Position numbers and translations under genes: made by a program. Below, piece by piece: positions 36,791 through 46,675 of a stretch of DNA of 46,675 nt (its first letter is position 1; each line of letters opens with the position of its first letter). The notes beneath the pieces were generated by a model. It saw only the letters and a program-made list of their open reading frames with translations. It was not told the DNA's origin and did not search any database. This DNA is from a virus: IMG/VR virus record IMGVR_UViG_3300005917_000003, positions 1 to 46,675 of that record; one strand, 5' to 3'.

Positions 36791-39700
36791 ATGAAAAAGA
36801 TACTATTATTTTTATTTATTTTCCTGAGCCTTTCAGGGTTTTCACAATGGAACATCAAGGTGGATACTGTTGATCTTTATAGGGGTGGTGAATTATACTA
36901 CCAGAGATCAGCTACGGACACGGTATTCTTAAATGCAGATACTATCCTATTAGGGGATGCTGGATTGTGGCAGCACGTAACCGAGCATGATGGTACTTAT
37001 CTTGAGTCTTTAACCGCTGATGATTCCTTGTTAATTGACGGGATTATCAAGTACAAAGGGATTAAGCAAAACGCTAATCGGGGGCTGAAGTTTGTAATGT
37101 GGAGACCCGCTGACTCCGTTATGTATTTGTCGGTTTACGATTTAGACTCATTAGGAACGATTATAACGGATTCGCTAATGATAACGGACATAATTTCAAC
37201 TACTCTTGTAGATTCATTAATGGTGTTAGTTATAGAGTACGGAGATTCGCTCGTCCAGTTTATAAGTACTGAGGATTTACAGGACTCTATTTTTGCGGAT
37301 TACACAACCATGCTAACTGACAGAACGGATGAATGGGTGCGGAATGATTCTATTAAGATAGATACAACCGTTACGAGAGTTTACGGGGCTGGGATTAACG
37401 TAGTAACAGGATCGCATCCAAATATAACGGTTACAGCAACGGAGGTAGATGGCTCAATTACAAACGAAGGTGATATAAGTGTAACGGCTGGTGGTGCTAA
37501 TACTTCTGTATTACACTCTAATACTTCTGGATCAACGGATGTAACGCTTTCGGGTAGTACATATTTAAACGTAACAGAAGCGGGTAATACGGTTACTTTC
37601 ACACCGACAGGATTACAGCCTACAATCACCCCAGCTAACGTAACCGCTGGCTCAAATAAAATAACGCTAGGTGGCACTCCAACTGGTGCCGCCTTGCAGG
37701 CATTTTCTATTGATGTGGATGAAACAAAGATCAACCATGACAACTTACTGAACTATGTGGGTGGGCAGCATTACCTACAACCTGACATTGATACAGTTAA
37801 TGATGACATTACGGGGATGTTAAAAGCTACTTCAGGAGTATTGGCTCAGGCAGTAGCTGGTGTTGACTACCCTGCTGCGCTTTGGGATACCACAGGAGGC
37901 ACCCCTACATTACGAACATTGCACCATGTCGATAATGGGAACATAATGGCTGCACAATTTGGGGTGGCTTTATATATCGACAGGGATACGGAGTACAGCC
38001 CGTTGGCAGCACCACCTAATGCGCTTTATGTCGGTGGCTATTCTGAATTTGATTCTGCCGTTGTTATGAAAAATATGGATACATTGGTAACGGTGCCGAC
38101 CTTTGCATTGACCTTGTCTGCAACCGGAGATACTGTTCTAAAATATCCCTGGCCGGAAGGTGAGGTGGTTGAGGATAGTGTGCAATGGCGGCTGGATGCG
38201 ACAACGGGTCGGATATTCCCAAAGAGCGACAAATCTATTGAATTGGTTAACACTACATCTGCTTCAACAGGGGTGATTTATAAAGAAGGGGAGTCGTTCA
38301 TTCATAATTTCGCAAACACCACACCGATTGGACACAATGTTTTTATCGGTGAGGGTGCCGGGAACTTTACAATGGATGGAACCACAAACCAAGCGAGTAA
38401 TAATACGATTGTTGGAACTGATGCTTTTAACGGCAATACGACAGGGGCGAGTAATATGGGAATTGGGTGGCAAGTATTAAAACTTAATACAACCGGATCG
38501 TGGAATTCCGCAATCGGAACTCAATCTATGATTGTAAATACAACCGGGTACGGTAATACGGCAAATGGAGTATCTGCATTAAGGTCAAACACAATTGGGT
38601 TTTATAATTTAGGTTTAGGGTACGCTTCTTTATATAGCAACACGACAGGATGGGGCAATATTGGAATTGGAGCAGCTACCGGATGGAATAACACCACCGG
38701 CACAGGTAATATATTTATCGGAGACTCTGCTGGATATAATGCATCGCAGAAGGTGGATGCAGTAAATTCAATGGCACTGGGTTCATATACCTATACAACC
38801 GCCTCAAATCAGTTTGTTTATGGGAATAGCAGTGTTACTCGCCATGAGTTTAACGGTGGTTCAGTCTTTGCACCGGATTTGGCAGTTGCAACAGGCGATA
38901 CTTCCGTTGGCTTTAATCCATTGACCGGGGAGTTTTATGCAAAAGAGGATGTTGCACTGGTTACACCGGCCAACGTAACAGTCGGTTCGACCAAAATTAC
39001 ACTAGCAGGCACTCCAACCGGTGCTGCATTGCAAGCGTTTTCCATTGATGTAGATGAAACAAAGATCAACCATGACAATCTATTGAATTGGGTCGCCGGC
39101 AAGCACTTTTTGCGTTCCGAAATAGATAGTGTAGATAAAGATATTCCATATACGTCAACATTGGAAAAAATGGTAATGATTGACACGGTAACAGGAATAA
39201 TTTACCGCCGATCACGGATACCCGTAGCGGTTGGCGATTCAATCGGAGAGATGTTATATTGGGATGGTGATAGTTGGGAACCGGCATACGGAAAGCACTT
39301 AATATGGGACCCGACACCGGGGAGCATGGGTATAAATTCATACACACCCAATGCAAGGCTGGAAGTGATTGGAGAGGATGAAGAAACGGCAATTATTGGC
39401 ATATCCTCTGGCGATAATTCCATTGGCGGTTACTTTGAGATTACAGGGGTTCCCGGTGATGGAACCGGATATGCAGTTTACGCTCACGGAGAGGAAGATG
39501 GAGGCGGTGCTTACGGAGTATGGGCGCAATCTGATTCAAGTGCTGGTATCGCTTTGTATGCCACAAGTCAAGACGGTACCGCCTTATCTGTTGCTGGTCG
39601 GGCGAACTTTTCGGATTACATTGAATTTGACCAAGCGGCTGCACCATCACCGACAACAGATAGATTGTACAATGTTTCGGGTGATCTGTTTTGGAACGGC

Positions 39701-41758
39701 ACAGAGGTAGGTGCTGCCACAAGTGGAAACATTGCAGATGGTGATACCACAAATGAAATGGCAGTGTGGAATGAAACGGCTGGAGAGTATCAGGCCACAA
39801 ACTACAACGGCTTAAACTTTGACCCTGCCACTAAATCCCTCTACGAAAACAGTAAGAAAGTAATCAACCACCAAGAGATCAACAACACGGTAGCAGATGG
39901 CAAGGGTATGTGGCTCGATGGGACTAACGATAATATTTCGTTAGGAACGGATACGGAACTTGATTTGGGAACGGGAGATGGCAGCTATTTTGTAAGATTC
40001 AAGAATACGGGAAATGATGCAGATTATAATTTCATCTTTGATGTGTTGGACGGTACGACTAATGACAGGCAAGAGATAATAATAGGAAATGGTGGATTGC
40101 TAAGACTATACATAAAGGAGAATAATGTTGCGAAGTATGCCGAAGGGACAACGGATGTAGGTGCAGATGGGTTGGTTCATTCAGTAGCGGGAACGATTGA
40201 TAGAAGTAGTGCGACAGGGTTAAAGATTTACCTTGACGGAAAAGAGGAGACATACGGGACACAGGAAGACCCGACTTCACTTACAGGAAGTATTGCATCA
40301 ACAGGTATTAAATATGTTGGAATTTCCCAAAATGGAACATCCTATCCATTCGCTGGATCAATCTACTCATTCAGTTATTGGAACATGGCCTTATCCGCCT
40401 CGGAGGTACTTGCGTTATCGGAGGGCGGTGCGACTCCTTATAAATATACGGGGGCGAGTAATGCGGAACTAACAAGCGGGACACTTACGATTGGGAAACA
40501 ATATAGAATAGTAGACTGGATAACGAATGATGACTTTACCAATATAGGTGGTACTAATGTGGATGGCAATGAATTTACTGCTACGGGAACCACACCCACC
40601 ACATGGACAAACAGTTCAGTAGTAATAAGAATAGGCGAAGTCCTATCGCTTGACCCAGCGGGGATGTCAACAGCAACGTGGTACGACCAGAGCGGTAACG
40701 GGATTGATGGAACGGTGAGTGGTGCGGTTGTAAGTAATATGCCAGAGAATACGATAGTGGGAAGATTCCTTGAAGCAATATCAGCAGAGAATACCTCCAT
40801 TTATTCTATAAGTTCAAGTAATGACAAATCTGCAGCTGCCGTAATAAGAAACATTGGGACACAGAATAACTACATTCTATTAGCAGCTTATGGTTCGACA
40901 CATGCTGGCACGTCATCTGGAATTACAAGGGCGGGATTGACAGAAATGTCATGGGGAAATAGTACGGGATTCTTCTTTCGTGGGATATCTAATGCACCTC
41001 TATACTTTGCTACAAATAATACGGTACGAATGACTGTTTTAGGTTCAGGCAACGTAGGCATAGGGACTGTTTCGCCGAGTCAATTATTAACAGTAGATAA
41101 TGGTACAAGTATAGGCACTTACACTACGTCAGGATGGGTTCATGCTTCAGACAGTACAATGAAAGAGAAAATTAAGCCATTACGGAATACGTTAGGTAAG
41201 ATACAGGCATTAAACGGCATTATGTTCGTTTGGAAAACAAAGGTTGGAACAGGAACAAATACAACCACAACAAAGAAAAAGCAGATTGGATATATTGCAC
41301 AGGAAGTTGAGCCAATTATCCCAGAGGCTGTTTTATACGATTCGGTTAATGATACATATTCAATGGCATATAGTCAAGTTATTCCTGTAATTACAGAAGC
41401 GATAAAGGAGCAATACCGAATCTCCACAATCACAACAGGGGGAACAGCAACGGATACATATACGGTTAATGACACTACGGGGATACCGAGAACAGCGTTA
41501 GCAGCTACGATATATTATAACTCCCCTACTGCGATAGACTTCGTGGCAGGGTACAAGCAGATAGGGAATGGTCAATATGACGGGCAAATTATATCTATTA
41601 CTAGCTTTAAAAACAACTATACGATAACGCTAGATCAGGGCGACAATGTGAAACTTGACGAGGGAGTGACGTGGGTAGGTGGCAAAGGTGATGAGATAGT
41701 ACTGAAGTGGGTTGAAGAACTTTCTAATTGGTATGAGAGGAGTAGGAGCGATAACTAA
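36791..41758 (+). CDS. Long tail fibre/spike with signal peptide, YadA-like, LamG and S74 parts
   Basis: 1,655 residues, the largest gene. Residues 1-19 (MKKILLFLFIFLSLSGFSQ) are a signal peptide. Residues 282-340 and 727-785 are a duplicated segment (ANVT.GS.KITL.GTPTGAAL). Between them, about 514-688, is a YadA-head-like repeat region (IGEGAGNFT, VGTDAFNGNTTG, IGDSAGYN). A LamG/concanavalin-like domain lies at about 1037-1212, a second DQSGNG segment near 1300, and an S74 intramolecular chaperone at about 1451-1543 (ASDSTMKEKIKPL; IGYIAQEVEPIIPEAV). About 110 residues follow the S74 part. It is the likely host-receptor fibre, trimerised and trimmed by the S74 domain. Confidence 0.8.
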   Translation: MKKILLFLFIFLSLSGFSQWNIKVDTVDLYRGGELYYQRSATDTVFLNADTILLGDAGLWQHVTEHDGTYLESLTADDSLLIDGIIKYKGIKQNANRGLKFVMWRPADSVMYLSVYDLDSLGTIITDSLMITDIISTTLVDSLMVLVIEYGDSLVQFISTEDLQDSIFADYTTMLTDRTDEWVRNDSIKIDTTVTRVYGAGINVVTGSHPNITVTATEVDGSITNEGDISVTAGGANTSVLHSNTSGSTDVTLSGSTYLNVTEAGNTVTFTPTGLQPTITPANVTAGSNKITLGGTPTGAALQAFSIDVDETKINHDNLLNYVGGQHYLQPDIDTVNDDITGMLKATSGVLAQAVAGVDYPAALWDTTGGTPTLRTLHHVDNGNIMAAQFGVALYIDRDTEYSPLAAPPNALYVGGYSEFDSAVVMKNMDTLVTVPTFALTLSATGDTVLKYPWPEGEVVEDSVQWRLDATTGRIFPKSDKSIELVNTTSASTGVIYKEGESFIHNFANTTPIGHNVFIGEGAGNFTMDGTTNQASNNTIVGTDAFNGNTTGASNMGIGWQVLKLNTTGSWNSAIGTQSMIVNTTGYGNTANGVSALRSNTIGFYNLGLGYASLYSNTTGWGNIGIGAATGWNNTTGTGNIFIGDSAGYNASQKVDAVNSMALGSYTYTTASNQFVYGNSSVTRHEFNGGSVFAPDLAVATGDTSVGFNPLTGEFYAKEDVALVTPANVTVGSTKITLAGTPTGAALQAFSIDVDETKINHDNLLNWVAGKHFLRSEIDSVDKDIPYTSTLEKMVMIDTVTGIIYRRSRIPVAVGDSIGEMLYWDGDSWEPAYGKHLIWDPTPGSMGINSYTPNARLEVIGEDEETAIIGISSGDNSIGGYFEITGVPGDGTGYAVYAHGEEDGGGAYGVWAQSDSSAGIALYATSQDGTALSVAGRANFSDYIEFDQAAAPSPTTDRLYNVSGDLFWNGTEVGAATSGNIADGDTTNEMAVWNETAGEYQATNYNGLNFDPATKSLYENSKKVINHQEINNTVADGKGMWLDGTNDNISLGTDTELDLGTGDGSYFVRFKNTGNDADYNFIFDVLDGTTNDRQEIIIGNGGLLRLYIKENNVAKYAEGTTDVGADGLVHSVAGTIDRSSATGLKIYLDGKEETYGTQEDPTSLTGSIASTGIKYVGISQNGTSYPFAGSIYSFSYWNMALSASEVLALSEGGATPYKYTGASNAELTSGTLTIGKQYRIVDWITNDDFTNIGGTNVDGNEFTATGTTPTTWTNSSVVIRIGEVLSLDPAGMSTATWYDQSGNGIDGTVSGAVVSNMPENTIVGRFLEAISAENTSIYSISSSNDKSAAAVIRNIGTQNNYILLAAYGSTHAGTSSGITRAGLTEMSWGNSTGFFFRGISNAPLYFATNNTVRMTVLGSGNVGIGTVSPSQLLTVDNGTSIGTYTTSGWVHASDSTMKEKIKPLRNTLGKIQALNGIMFVWKTKVGTGTNTTTTKKKQIGYIAQEVEPIIPEAVLYDSVNDTYSMAYSQVIPVITEAIKEQYRISTITTGGTATDTYTVNDTTGIPRTALAATIYYNSPTAIDFVAGYKQIGNGQYDGQIISITSFKNNYTITLDQGDNVKLDEGVTWVGGKGDEIVLKWVEELSNWYERSRSDN
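37634..37810 (+). repeat. Fibre duplicated segment, copy 1
   Basis: Encodes 59 residues starting ANVTAGSNKITLGGTPTGAA. Copy 2 at 38969-39145 shares most residues, including AFSIDVDETKINHDNLLN. The two copies flank the YadA-like insert. Confidence 0.85.
38969..39145 (+). repeat. Fibre duplicated segment, copy 2
   Basis: Encodes ANVTVGSTKITLAGTPTGAA and onwards, with the same 59-residue length as copy 1. Third positions differ, often towards G or C here, so this copy has a different history from copy 1. Confidence 0.85.
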
Positions 41759-42609
41759 TGAGAAACATACTATTCATATTATTGATTTTTTTGGTTGGGT
41801 GTAGTCCTGTGCCGATAAACGTGCTGGTGAACCCTCCAACGAATGATAAGCCTCCAACGGGGTTTATTATAGCTGATAGATACGAGTTCGCTACAGAGGC
41901 TGACAGACCGCCTAATAAGGATTTAAATACTTGTGCAGTATGGGGAGTGAATCATGTCCATCGTAGGGCAGGGGGAATGTACAATCCTGACGGTAGTCCT
42001 GTCCCTGCAAATGATCCTAGAAACTACTTTGAGAGCAACGCTGAACAGGCTAAATGGGTGAACGGGACGATAGCATTAGTAACTGATTTAAATAAGCACC
42101 CTGAGTCTTGTGGAGTTGTCGGCAGTTCGATTGCTACAATCAAGAACTACGATGCACCTGTATTTGTTTCAGCACGGATGAAGGTTGCTCCTAGAGGTGG
42201 TACGTATTGGACTGCGTTAGTAAGCTATAGTCCAAATGGTTGGCTTCCTGAATCGGATTTTCACGAATTTGAATGTACTGACAGTAAGGCATTTACAAGT
42301 TCAATACATAGGATAGTTGATGGCAAGCACGTAATGACCCACACTAAGAAATTTACCTTTCCCGTTGACCTGTCTGATAAATTCCATATTTATTCAGCAT
42401 TGGTACTGCCAAACAGTATGACAATCTACCTTGATAACGTAGCGATATGGACAATAAACGAAGTAGGATTAAACGTAGAACCTATTTACTTTATGATAGA
42501 AAATCAAATATACAGCAATTGCGATACAACCTTAATAAACGATTCCAATAAGGCAATAATGTTTCCAACCTCCGCATACGTGGATTGGATACGAATATAC
42601 AAACCATGA
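41758..42609 (+). CDS. GH16-like glycoside hydrolase lipoprotein
   Basis: 283 residues. MRNILFILLIFLVGC is a type II signal with the lipobox LVGC (Cys15). The mature part fits the GH16 jelly-roll: an ExDxxE catalytic motif ESDFHE (Glu165, Asp167, Glu170), a following SSIHRI, and FHIYSALVLPNSMTIYLDNV near the C-terminus as in laminarinases and other GH16. The enzyme would cleave beta-linked polysaccharide, as a surface lipoprotein or as a depolymerase if also carried by the virion. It directly overlaps the fibre stop (TAATG) and overlaps the next gene by 4 bases. Confidence 0.75.
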   Translation: MRNILFILLIFLVGCSPVPINVLVNPPTNDKPPTGFIIADRYEFATEADRPPNKDLNTCAVWGVNHVHRRAGGMYNPDGSPVPANDPRNYFESNAEQAKWVNGTIALVTDLNKHPESCGVVGSSIATIKNYDAPVFVSARMKVAPRGGTYWTALVSYSPNGWLPESDFHEFECTDSKAFTSSIHRIVDGKHVMTHTKKFTFPVDLSDKFHIYSALVLPNSMTIYLDNVAIWTINEVGLNVEPIYFMIENQIYSNCDTTLINDSNKAIMFPTSAYVDWIRIYKP

Positions 42610-43085
42610 AGAAGCTAATCATTTTGCTGATGCTCCTGTCCACGATAGGATTCAGCCAGACGGCTTCGATACCTGAGTTACAGGCGATGCCAAAAGAAAC
42701 CGTTATCATACCCGTAAATGTAGCAAATTGGGTGGAGATTGGAGCGTTGTCTATCTACATAGATTTCGACCCAACTGTGCTGAAGTTTTGTGGTTCTGAA
42801 TTATCTCAACCTGATATGATGATCGGAAACCAGGGTGGCCATATAATCTTAATATGGACAGCTACTCCTTCGGTTTCAGGTGGTGGGATAGTATGGAATA
42901 CATGGACATTTGACGGGACAATAGCACAGCTTTACTTCGAGGTTTACGGATCTTCTACATTAGACTTCACAAGCCAATGCGAGGTGGTGCAATTAATTCC
43001 ACCTAATACGCTTAATTATATTACTGTTCAGTATACAAACGGATCTATTTATATACCCATGAGGGGATGCACACGACTAAAATAA
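42606..43085 (+). CDS. Secreted cohesin-like protein (159 aa)
   Basis: Start at 42606 (ATGA overlap) gives the signal peptide MKKLIILLMLLSTIGFSQ. The mature part, KETVIIPVNVANWVEIGALS followed by IYIDFDPTVLKFCG and IILIWTATPSVSGGG, has the text pattern of cohesin or cohesin-like beta-sandwich domains. No dockerin is seen in the neighbouring GH16-like protein. It may be a small adhesin or surface-binding protein paired with the hydrolase. The C-terminus has three Cys residues. Confidence 0.6.
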   Translation: MKKLIILLMLLSTIGFSQTASIPELQAMPKETVIIPVNVANWVEIGALSIYIDFDPTVLKFCGSELSQPDMMIGNQGGHIILIWTATPSVSGGGIVWNTWTFDGTIAQLYFEVYGSSTLDFTSQCEVVQLIPPNTLNYITVQYTNGSIYIPMRGCTRLK

Positions 43086-43091
43086 ACTACC

Positions 43092-43304
43092 ATGATACGA
43101 CTAGACATCACTACAGGAGCTACAAGCACAATCGGATCTTTCATATTAGGCATGATCCCTACATTTACCCACGAAACGAAAGATGAAATCGTGTTCTTTT
43201 TTCAGGTAGGTGCTTTTTTAATAAGTATTATCGTTGGTGTATTAACGGCAATAAATATCTGTCATAAAATAAAAGAGAGACGAAGTATTAACAAAAACAA
43301 GTAA
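43092..43304 (+). CDS. Holin-like membrane protein (70 aa)
   Basis: One strong membrane helix (FFFQVGAFLISIIVGVLTAI), perhaps with a weaker N-terminal hydrophobic stretch (SFILGMIPTF), and a basic C-terminal tail (HKIKERRSINKNK). Size, charge and place ahead of the endolysin fit a holin or anti-holin. Confidence 0.55.
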   Translation: MIRLDITTGATSTIGSFILGMIPTFTHETKDEIVFFFQVGAFLISIIVGVLTAINICHKIKERRSINKNK

Positions 43305-43307
43305 GTT

Positions 43308-43538
43308 ATGAGTAATTTTAAAGACACAGTTACTACCATTTGCGGAGTTGTAGCTGGTATTGCAACAGCGATTATCGGAGTACTTGCAACAGGATCAATT
43401 ACATTACCAGGATGGGTATTAGTGATTGCAGTTATTCTTGAAGCGGTATCAATAGCTATTATCGGAGCTTTACAGGGTAGAAATGCAGATGGCTCACGGA
43501 AAACCCCAGCACAGATCGAAGCTCAAAAGACCGAGTAA
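43308..43538 (+). CDS. Putative holin (76 aa, two membrane helices)
   Basis: Hydrophobic segments TTICGVVAGIATAIIGVLA and LPGWVLVIAVILEAVSIAII with a charged tail (GRNADGSRKTPAQIEAQKTE). This is a class II holin layout. With the previous gene it probably forms a holin pair that releases or activates the M15 peptidase encoded at 43822. Confidence 0.65.
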   Translation: MSNFKDTVTTICGVVAGIATAIIGVLATGSITLPGWVLVIAVILEAVSIAIIGALQGRNADGSRKTPAQIEAQKTE

Positions 43539-43838
43539 ATGAGGATACTGATTGCCGACCAGAATGCAGATCAAAGGGAACTAATTAAACGTATCTACAC
43601 AGGTCATTGGATAAGGGAAGCCAAACATTCAACCGAAGTTTTAGCTAAGTGTAAAGACTTTGATTTAATCTTTACAGATGTTTGGTTTCCTGGACTCGGA
43701 GGGATGCTTTATTTGCATCAGCTCCATAAGAAAACAAAAGCTAAGATCGTATTAGTATCAACAGGAGAAAATCACGGGTGGAATGACTATATTCGCAAAC
43801 CTTTTAAGAGGGATCAAATCTATGACTACATCAAATGA
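43539..43838 (+). CDS. Stand-alone response-regulator receiver-like protein (99 aa)
   Basis: A CheY-like pattern: RILIADQNADQRELIKRIYT (first strand, with Asp7 but not the usual acidic pair), DLIFTDVWFPGLGGM with a phospho-acceptor candidate Asp47, KIVLVSTG with Ser74/Thr75, and YIRKPFKRDQI with Lys87. It is shorter than usual (about 120) and carries no output domain. It starts one base after the holin stop and overlaps the endolysin start, so it is co-expressed with lysis genes. Possible timer or host-signalling mimic; function not known. Confidence 0.75.
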   Translation: MRILIADQNADQRELIKRIYTGHWIREAKHSTEVLAKCKDFDLIFTDVWFPGLGGMLYLHQLHKKTKAKIVLVSTGENHGWNDYIRKPFKRDQIYDYIK

Positions 43839-44247
43839 GTTTGTCCTACACGACTATTTAGATTCTCAGATAGGTGCAAGGAATGGCTATGAAGAACAAT
43901 TCCAACCACCCGATCACATCATTGAGAACCTTAAAGAACTACACGAGAACCTAATCAAGCCGTTGATGGATTTCATGTACGGTGGAAAGTTTGTTATCTC
44001 GTCAGGTTATAGATGTCCAAGAGTAAATAAGAAGGCTGGCGGGGCTGGTCGATCCCAACACATGACAGGGATGGCTGTGGATTTAAAGTACGTTAGAGAT
44101 AACCAAATGGACAACGGGGAGATCATTAATACTTTAATAATGCTGGATCTTCCTTTCGATCAATGTATAGATGAATTTAATTTATCATGGGTGCATTTGT
44201 CCTTTGACCCATCTAGAAACAGAAGGCAGTTACTTAAAATAGGATAA
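43822..44247 (+). CDS. Peptidase M15-type endolysin
   Basis: The ATG at 43822 gives MTTSNEFVLHDYLDSQIGAR; an earlier ATG lies in the receiver gene. The M15_3 signature is present: FVISSGYRCPRVNKKAGGAG then S78-x-H80-x-x-G83-x-A85-x-D87 (SQHMTGMAVD) and a later SWVHLSFDP with the third zinc ligand. It is a zinc L,D- or D,D-peptidase that cuts peptidoglycan cross-bridges to lyse the cell. No signal peptide, so it depends on the holin. Confidence 0.88.
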   Translation: MTTSNEFVLHDYLDSQIGARNGYEEQFQPPDHIIENLKELHENLIKPLMDFMYGGKFVISSGYRCPRVNKKAGGAGRSQHMTGMAVDLKYVRDNQMDNGEIINTLIMLDLPFDQCIDEFNLSWVHLSFDPSRNRRQLLKIG

Positions 44248-45230
44248 TGAAGGTAGTAACAGATAAAGGGATTCTGGTCAGATCGTATATAGAACGATTC
44301 TCCCACACACCTAAACTTTCACTAGCCAGAAAAATCTATTCAGAGAATGCTTTACTATTTAAAGACGTTGAAGAAGCGAGGTCAATGATTCGTTATCATA
44401 CGGGTAAGACGGGTAGGAGGCATTTATGTAAAGATCCATCTAGTAAGCTAATCGGAGCGTGTGAATTACCTGAAAGTATCTGCAAAGAGTACGTAAGGTA
44501 TGAGATGCCAAAGGTTAACAATAAGATTCTTTGTTTATTTGATATTCACTTCCCCTTCCATGATAACAACATTCTAGAATTGGCTTTACAATATGGCAAG
44601 GATCACGGAGCTAATACTGTTCTATTGGGTGGTGATGTGGTTGATTTCTATTCTTTGAGTTGGTTTTCACACGAGCCTAACCTGTCCACCTTCCAACTGG
44701 AGAGAGAGATGTTCTGGCAGTTCTTAGATGTGATAGATCATTATATGCCTAATGCTAAAGTAATCTGGCAAGAGGGAAACCACGAGCGTAGGTACGAGAA
44801 CTACCTAATGAGTAAAGCTCCAGAGATATTCGATACAGAAGAATTTAAACTTGAGTTTCTATTTAAGTGCGAAGAATTGGGGGTTACTTATGTAGGAGAT
44901 AAGAGAGTAATAAAGATAGGTAAGATCAATTCAGTTCACGGGGATGAGTACGGCAACTCAATTAACACCCCTGTCAATGCTGCGAGAAACCTATTCTTAA
45001 AAGCTAAAGCCTGTGCAATAGAAGGACACTTTCACGCTACCTCAGAGCATACAGAAACGGACATAGATGGTAAGGTTATCACTTGTTGGAGTGTGGGTTG
45101 CTGTTGTGGGCTTCATCCTAAATACAGACCTTTGAACAGGTGGAATAATGGATTTGCGGAGATTGAACTTGAAAAGGATGGGAACTTTACGGTACACAAT
45201 CACAGAATAGTGAAAGGGAAAATAGTATGA
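44247..45230 (+). CDS. Calcineurin-like metallophosphoesterase
   Basis: 327 residues. The metal-binding motifs occur in order: CLFDIHFPFHD (DxH), LGGDVVDFYS (GDxxD), EGNHERRYENYL (GNHE), SVHGDEYGN and GHFHAT (GHxH). A 90-residue N-terminal extension with a basic patch (RSMIRYHTGKTGRRH) precedes the catalytic core, as in other phage members. The substrate may be a nucleic-acid end, cyclic nucleotide or phosphoprotein; the family is too broad to decide. Four-base overlap with the following gene. Confidence 0.88.
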   Translation: MKVVTDKGILVRSYIERFSHTPKLSLARKIYSENALLFKDVEEARSMIRYHTGKTGRRHLCKDPSSKLIGACELPESICKEYVRYEMPKVNNKILCLFDIHFPFHDNNILELALQYGKDHGANTVLLGGDVVDFYSLSWFSHEPNLSTFQLEREMFWQFLDVIDHYMPNAKVIWQEGNHERRYENYLMSKAPEIFDTEEFKLEFLFKCEELGVTYVGDKRVIKIGKINSVHGDEYGNSINTPVNAARNLFLKAKACAIEGHFHATSEHTETDIDGKVITCWSVGCCCGLHPKYRPLNRWNNGFAEIELEKDGNFTVHNHRIVKGKIV

Positions 45231-46598: not shown

Positions 46599-46675
46599 AT
46601 GAAAACAATCGACAATGTCCAAGTAACAGGTGGAGCCAACGGCAACCGCCTTCAAGTAGAAATTCCTTCAGGCAT
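46599..46675 (+). CDS. Hypothetical early protein, 5' part
   Basis: ATG at 46599 opens MKTIDNVQVTGGANGNRLQV and reads, after the 50-base overlap, straight into the ORF at the start of the window (frame kept, stop at 376). The full protein is 134 residues. Confidence 0.85.
   Translation, partial: MKTIDNVQVTGGANGNRLQVEIPSG
46626..46675. repeat. Right copy of 50-base terminal direct repeat
   Basis: Identical to bases 1-50. It shows that the two ends of the window are adjacent in the genome. If this is assembly overlap, the unique length is 46,625 bases. Confidence 0.95.

Follow-up and report, generated by a model that had tools for sequence, protein, structure and literature searches.

Phage lysis timing is known to depend on holin accumulation, antiholins and membrane potential, and we know of no phage lysis cassette that contains a two-component signalling protein. 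Among the titles and abstracts returned by full-text searches of open-licence papers, none claimed receivers or response regulators in phage lysis cassettes. Among cellular proteins, the single-domain response regulators CheY, Spo0F and DivK consist of one receiver with no effector. Bacterial pseudo-receivers were defined by Bourret and colleagues (PMC12632262) as PF00072 matches without at least one of five active-site residues: both positions of the acid pair (DD) are acidic in 100% of true receivers, the metal is bound directly by the second position (DD2), and DD2 is non-acidic in about 80% of pseudo-receivers, which are expected to act without Asp phosphorylation. Among phage proteins, the small PIT4 of Pseudomonas phage LSL4 binds host histidine kinase domains (PMC10714779), and the cREC enzymes (cyclic-phosphate processing, receiver-like; PF20274) are frequently found in phages, where calcineurin-like phosphoesterases can be their neighbours (PMC7824862, PMC9503650). 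Stand-alone receivers were also published for the Alteromonas phages V22, A5 and R8W; in the available portions of these accounts they were labelled as auxiliary metabolic gene, 'PhoB' or host-recognition part, and no link to lysis was made.

The DNA analysed here (the window) was a viral stretch of 46,675 nucleotides (IMG/VR record IMGVR_UViG_3300005917_000003). A preliminary description, made from the letters alone, had noticed a 99-residue CheY-like receiver between its holin and endolysin genes, and had proposed a lysis-timing sensor or a sink for a host kinase, either of which, if true, would be a new type of lysis regulation. An identical copy of the receiver was found in a second assembly (contig L001, IMG/VR 3300023262_000007), which runs from the end of the window into its start with an overlap of about 50 bp (1-50 and 46626-46675). 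This join indicates that the phage genome, of about 46.6 kb, is covered almost in full by the window and is either a circle or circularly permuted. Over 8.1 kb, all five differences between the two assemblies fell within 36 bp (41492-41527) near the 3' end of the large tail gene, possibly as local hypervariation. The portal protein matched 75 records, 74 of them with a bacteroidete host name (including Croceibacter P2559S/Y, Flavobacterium and Bacteroides; 30-34% identity among the best matches), and this grouping with Bacteroidota phages makes a bacteroidete host probable.

In viral contigs, close homologues of the receiver, the endolysin and the metallophosphoesterase that follows it were found in the same phage only, and a single-protein search of genome contigs returned no homologue of the receiver. 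Of 15 records searched for PF00072, the same-phage contig alone matched; the 12 cultured phages used for comparison gave no match, and nor did the structural relatives L006 and L010. The structural-gene relatives L005-L012 stop short of the lysis region; as far as could be tested, the receiver is specific to this phage lineage. Many 'phage' receiver matches came from unannotated or bacterial-looking contigs and were given no weight.

Features of the receiver gene and its surroundings (window coordinates)
Feature	Coordinates	Strand	Evidence or remark
Large tail gene	36791-41758		upstream of lysis genes
GH16-like lectin/hydrolase	41758-42609		between tail gene and lysis genes; family match
Cohesin-like secreted protein	42585-43085		between tail gene and lysis genes; family match
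70-aa protein, one strong TM segment, second holin candidate	43092..43304	+	hydropathy peak 2.65; phrog_20 holin E=0.0027, weak
76-aa two-TM protein, holin candidate	43308..43538	+	hydropathy peaks 2.27, 2.80; phrog_3428 holin E=0.039, weak
Stand-alone (pseudo-)receiver, 99 aa	43539..43838	+	ATG...TGA; PF00072 profile, AlphaFold2 model, fold matches
D7 (DD1) codon	43557-43559	+	alignments
Q8 (DD2) codon	43560-43562	+	alignments
D47 (phospho-acceptor) codon	43677-43679	+	motif TD47VWFPGLGG
Site of missing helix alpha4 (beta4 69-74, loop, beta5 84-86)	43755..43790	+	AlphaFold2 secondary structure, alignments, spacing scans
S74 (T position) codon	43758-43760	+	alignments; beta4 ends at residue 74 in the model
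Y84 (K-3) codon	43788-43790	+	alignments
K87 codon	43797-43799	+	motif Y84IRK87PF
M15 peptidase endolysin	43822..44247	+	phrog_894 E=2.3e-25; PF08291 2e-13
Calcineurin-like metallophosphoesterase, after endolysin	44247..45230	+	phrog_221 1e-36; PF00149 2.9e-5
227-aa protein, N-terminal TM segment	45227..45910	+	hydropathy; no PHROG or Pfam match

The reported position between holin and endolysin genes was recovered, with a firm family match for the endolysin and, for the holin, weak matches together with two TM segments. The ATG of the receiver is the base directly after the stop codon of the 76-aa two-TM gene, and the receiver overlaps the endolysin start, as had been described, by 17 nt when the probable endolysin ATG is used (an alternative in-frame ATG lies at 43783). 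With the endolysin gene adjacent, this stand-alone receiver lies, like those of the Alteromonas phages described below, no more than two genes away from a lysis gene (holin, spanin or endolysin). From the gene order, it would be co-translated with the lysis proteins and expressed late, at lysis time. No histidine-kinase ATPase (HATPase_c) or Hpt domain was detected in the phage genome. The GH16-like and cohesin-like genes (41758-43085) are possibly more extra genes in the same stretch.

The PF00072 profile matched residues 3-98 of the 99-aa protein (E=2.6e-11; 44.1 bits, against a curated cut-off of 30.2), and an output domain is absent, in agreement with the preliminary description. PHROG matches included phrog_731 (1.3e-9), and these families also match other receivers. 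The best sequence match among solved structures was TrrA of Thermotoga (3a0r_B, E=7.5e-7; solved with the kinase ThkA), which differs in being cellular, with a longer beta4-beta5 segment and an intact active site. The phospho-acceptor Asp, the Thr/Ser and the Lys of a receiver are all present (D47, S74 and K87), the Asp and Lys in their expected motifs, and further receiver positions were recognised at P51 (D+4), G55 (D+8) and T75 (T+1); the T+1 residue is thus Thr rather than Ala or Gly. The single acidic residue noticed earlier at the metal site was also found: D7 is the sole acidic member of the acid pair, and DD2, the direct Mg ligand (Asp13 in CheY), is Gln8. The pair of acidic residues typical of phosphorylation-competent receivers is thus incomplete, and the protein is classed from its sequence as a pseudo-receiver by the definition of PMC12632262, via the Gln at DD2. 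Mg-dependent phosphotransfer by this protein would be unlikely, given Q8. The protein shares with the bacterial pseudo-receivers a PF00072 match, a lost active-site residue and a presumed action without Asp phosphorylation, and differs from them in being phage-encoded, stand-alone, apparently without helix alpha4, and located in a lysis operon.

Structure prediction, which had been suggested as a check, returned a receiver fold: the AlphaFold2 model, built from the sequence aligned with 17 other receivers, had pLDDT 89.8 and pTM 0.82, and the Z scores to solved receivers were about 14-15. With Foldseek and VIA-align, receivers were matched throughout (Z up to 15.3, rmsd 1.7 over 99 residues), including Spo0F (1nat; Z=15.0, rmsd 1.7 over 99 residues). 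The prediction from the single sequence was poor (pLDDT 50.7), so part of the good model's quality comes from the receiver alignment. In the model, strands occupy residues 2-6, 24-28, 43-47, 69-74 and 84-86 and helices residues 10-19, 31-40, 55-65 and 91-97, in the order beta1-alpha1-beta2-alpha2-beta3-alpha3-beta4-beta5-alpha5. Helix alpha4 is absent from the model, which accordingly lacks the five helices of the (beta-alpha)5 fold of the receiver superfamily, and beta4 and beta5 are connected by a loop of about nine residues. A ten-residue gap at alpha4 was also evident in the sequence alignments, apart from the model; the D-to-K distance is 40, against about 50 canonically, and the protein is net 14 residues short of the 110 matched Pfam positions. 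This predicted loss of alpha4 adds to the preliminary description. On its profile and overall predicted fold, the protein is a reduced, receiver-derived protein and not a canonical receiver; it shares the single receiver, the fold and the lack of an effector with CheY, Spo0F and DivK, and differs from them in the loss of DD2 and, in the model, of alpha4. It would illustrate the extent to which a receiver can be reduced and yet be retained by a phage.

These losses (DD2, alpha4 and the end of alpha5), together with the absence of homologues in the searches above, could also mean that the gene is a decaying, functionless fragment of a host-derived receiver gene. We consider this most unlikely, because the reading frame is intact with no frameshift, its codon use is like that of the other phage genes (0.058, within a range of 0.003-0.145), the beta-strand pattern of the model is clean, and the gene is packed among and overlaps others and is identical in the second assembly.

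The rarity of the short spacing was assessed with a degenerate DNA pattern (beta3-D-xxx-P-xxx-G ... [YF]-hydrophobic-x-K-P-F) with a D-to-K distance of 40 codons. In IMG/VR this pattern matched this phage only, and a looser version matched 29 viral stretches, among which the sole receiver, judged by eye, was that of this phage. Three stretches were matched in about 85,000 prokaryote genomes: one interrupted by N, one in a Lachnospiraceae OmpR-type regulator, and one in the C-terminal receiver of a larger, hybrid-kinase-like protein. With the canonical spacing of 50 and an added Gly constraint, 17 viral stretches were matched and all 17 were receivers; an out-of-frame control of the canonical-spacing pattern gave no matches in viral contigs.

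The metallophosphoesterase gene that follows the endolysin raised the question of a cREC domain, similar in size and related to receivers, that would partner this adjacent enzyme, as the neighbourhoods described for cREC proteins allow. This identity was rejected, and we regard it as extremely improbable: PF20274 was unmatched even at E<=10, whereas PF00072 matched strongly, the TM of 0.61 for a cREC model placed it well behind receivers (about 0.80) in the structure search, and no NAD/ADPr enzyme lay beside the receiver among the family matches made.

A search for receivers in the lysis regions of other phages, also suggested in the preliminary description, was positive, with cases in the Alteromonas phages PB15, XX1924, R9Y1-3, R8W, H4/4, A5 and V22. 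In PB15 the order is a hemolysin-like gene (phrog_937 1.8e-16), the receiver, an M15 endolysin (phrog_894 1.6e-31, the same PHROG as the endolysin that follows the receiver in the window) and a holin (phrog_3427 2.6e-40); the order in XX1924 is the same, with a DUF5675 protein in place of the endolysin. In R9Y1, a coiled-coil protein with one TM segment (1-TM) is followed by the receiver and an endolysin (phrog_315 1.1e-38), and in R9Y2 and R9Y3 a 97%-identical receiver adjoins an annotated lysozyme. R8W and H4/4 carry a class II holin (phrog_1356 7.3e-14), a 1-TM protein, the receiver, a membrane protein and the terminase. In A5 the receiver is followed by an Rz-like spanin (phrog_4297 2.9e-8), a two-TM protein and an annotated endolysin, and in V22 by an Rz-like protein (7e-6) and a two-TM protein. 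These receivers scored above the Pfam cut-off (H4/4 and R9Y2/3 were judged via close relatives), and the protein labelled 'PhoB' has 153 aa and no DNA-binding domain match. The loci come from phages of several morphotypes (L090 3687-5143; L091 1742-3237; L085 4127-5671; L087 3485-4851; L084 4131-6245; L082 10370-12039). The small 1-TM coiled-coil proteins of R8W and R9Y1 have the C-terminal motif L-x-x-L-x-x-H-L-x-N-Q-R in common.

Like the window protein, the Alteromonas proteins are single receivers with no output domain, located in the late region among lysis genes, and in every phage measured the receiver stop overlaps the start of the next gene, by 4 to 35 nt. They differ in length (125-153 aa), in having all or most of alpha4 and an intact DD pair, in being mostly extended at the C-terminus and preceded by a 1-TM coiled-coil protein, and in their gammaproteobacterial host. 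Most keep the full DD-D-T/S-K set and are preceded by a small membrane or coiled-coil protein. Chance co-location was estimated, on the back of an envelope, to be of the order of 4e-5 (five lineages: A5/V22, PB15/XX1924, R9Y, R8W/H4 and the window; about eight genes per genome near the lysis cluster, itself an estimate), a figure to be read with the partial homology of the Alteromonas receivers and with one counter-example, the stand-alone viral receiver L052, which has no clear lysis neighbour. Pseudo-receivers and single-domain receivers are kinds already known; it is the recurrent placement in lysis cassettes that merits attention. That unrelated Alteromonas phages also keep receivers beside lysis genes gives a hint of a possible link, made by phages, between lysis and host signalling, and the recurrence in cultured phages makes it directly testable whether receivers filed as auxiliary metabolic genes set lysis time.

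In a comparison with profiles built from equal numbers of sequences, two generic receiver profiles gave the window receiver scores of 47 and 31 bits, and the profile of the lysis-region receivers gave it 15 bits. This last profile includes the degenerate sequence of phage V19, a weakness of the 15-bit comparison. The window receiver is thus no closer to the Alteromonas lysis receivers and fits generic receivers better, which makes an independent capture probable, most likely from a receiver of NtrC/hybrid-kinase type. Such a separate capture would also suit a moron that alters host signalling, has no relation to lysis and sits in an insertion hot-spot between the tail-fibre and lysis/terminase genes. 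This is the main rival reading: morons gather at the ends of late operons, and the position of the gene would then carry no information about its function. The GH16-like and cohesin-like genes nearby are other apparent extra genes, the receiver is lineage-specific and absent from the cultured comparison phages, and V22 and A5 have a common host-recognition module to which their receivers belong, travelling with a tail-fibre module (PMC10579305). However, receivers lie among lysis genes in several phage types, each time with a stop that overlaps the next start, and such recurrence would be unexpected for random insertion; we consider the moron somewhat unlikely, though by no means negligible.

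The mechanisms first proposed, the lysis-timing sensor and the kinase sink, fared less well than the location, as both need phosphotransfer, yet the direct metal ligand is lost and alpha4 of the output face is gone in the model. Of the original interpretation, the receiver fold, the lysis location, the coupling to the endolysin gene and the recurrence in other phages were supported, and the two mechanisms stayed hypothetical. For a phosphorylation-dependent timer, a host kinase would phosphorylate D47 and the phospho-form would gate the holin or endolysin. Its residues D47, S74, K87, Y84, P51 and G55 are retained, the Alteromonas receivers mostly keep their active sites and follow a small membrane or coiled-coil protein, and lysis gene expression of the R. 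capsulatus gene transfer agent is under phosphorelay/CtrA control (PMC6363796). We nevertheless hold this reading to be very unlikely for the window protein, in which DD2 is Gln and T+1 is Thr75, and whose model lacks alpha4, which belongs to the Y-T coupled output face.

The Gln at the metal ligand and the predicted loss of alpha4 favour docking that is independent of phosphorylation. Most likely, the window receiver is produced along with the lysis proteins and acts by docking, not as a phospho-timer; that it is a pseudo-receiver standing alone, co-translated with the endolysin and holin-like genes and active late through docking, is a tentative reading to which we give slightly less than an even chance. 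It would be a poor phospho-acceptor and, with no DNA-binding output, presumably not a transcription factor. Receivers use alpha1 and the beta5-alpha5 face as the surface on kinase and Hpt helices. On the general pattern of receiver-kinase complexes, from which the docking surfaces were assigned, the alpha1 and beta5-alpha5 face for binding kinases or phosphotransfer proteins would be kept in the window protein, and the alpha4-beta5-alpha5 output/dimer face would be lost. Since the kinase/Hpt-binding face appears to be kept, the first choice of target would be, on the host side, a sensor kinase or a phosphotransfer protein, such as one responsive to envelope stress, held by a constitutive decoy at lysis time. 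A late decoy might, speculatively, silence the envelope-stress response during the build-up of the lysis proteins. PIT4 is a precedent, by its way of working, for a phage protein that binds histidine kinases (PMC10714779), although it is an early gene not described in a lysis cassette. We regard the putative host-kinase decoy as possible, though clearly short of probable, and a second choice, a putative adaptor to a lysis membrane protein, as quite unlikely. More broadly, phages of several families and hosts may repeatedly have put stand-alone receivers, often by a small membrane coiled-coil protein, into lysis operons as couplers of lysis and host phospho-signalling, with the window protein as an independent, phosphorylation-independent version without alpha4; this generalisation is rather unlikely to hold in full.

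Further receiver loci were observed or set aside during these searches. The PhoP-like gene of Stenotrophomonas phage Bhz63 was not counted, being longer (239 codons) and outside the lysis region. In phage V19 (L089 3727-4450), a degenerate receiver that has lost the phospho-Asp and the Lys and falls just below the PF00072 cut-off lies directly after a 1-TM coiled-coil protein; it was left out as a lysis-linked case, with its neighbours on the other strand, and is a second phage pseudo-receiver that adjoins a small membrane protein. An unrelated viral contig (L066 5257-5867) carries a stand-alone receiver (PF00072 1.7e-22) with a 4-nt overlap with an upstream 1-TM protein; this receiver also overlaps the start of the downstream terminase small subunit, and its link to lysis, a weak Rz-like match, is suggestive. 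DUF5675 (PF18925) was found beside the receivers of Alteromonas phages (L091 2438-2836; L082 12829-13236; L089 5027-5422), and may be a lysis enzyme, given that it takes the place of the M15 endolysin of PB15 in XX1924.
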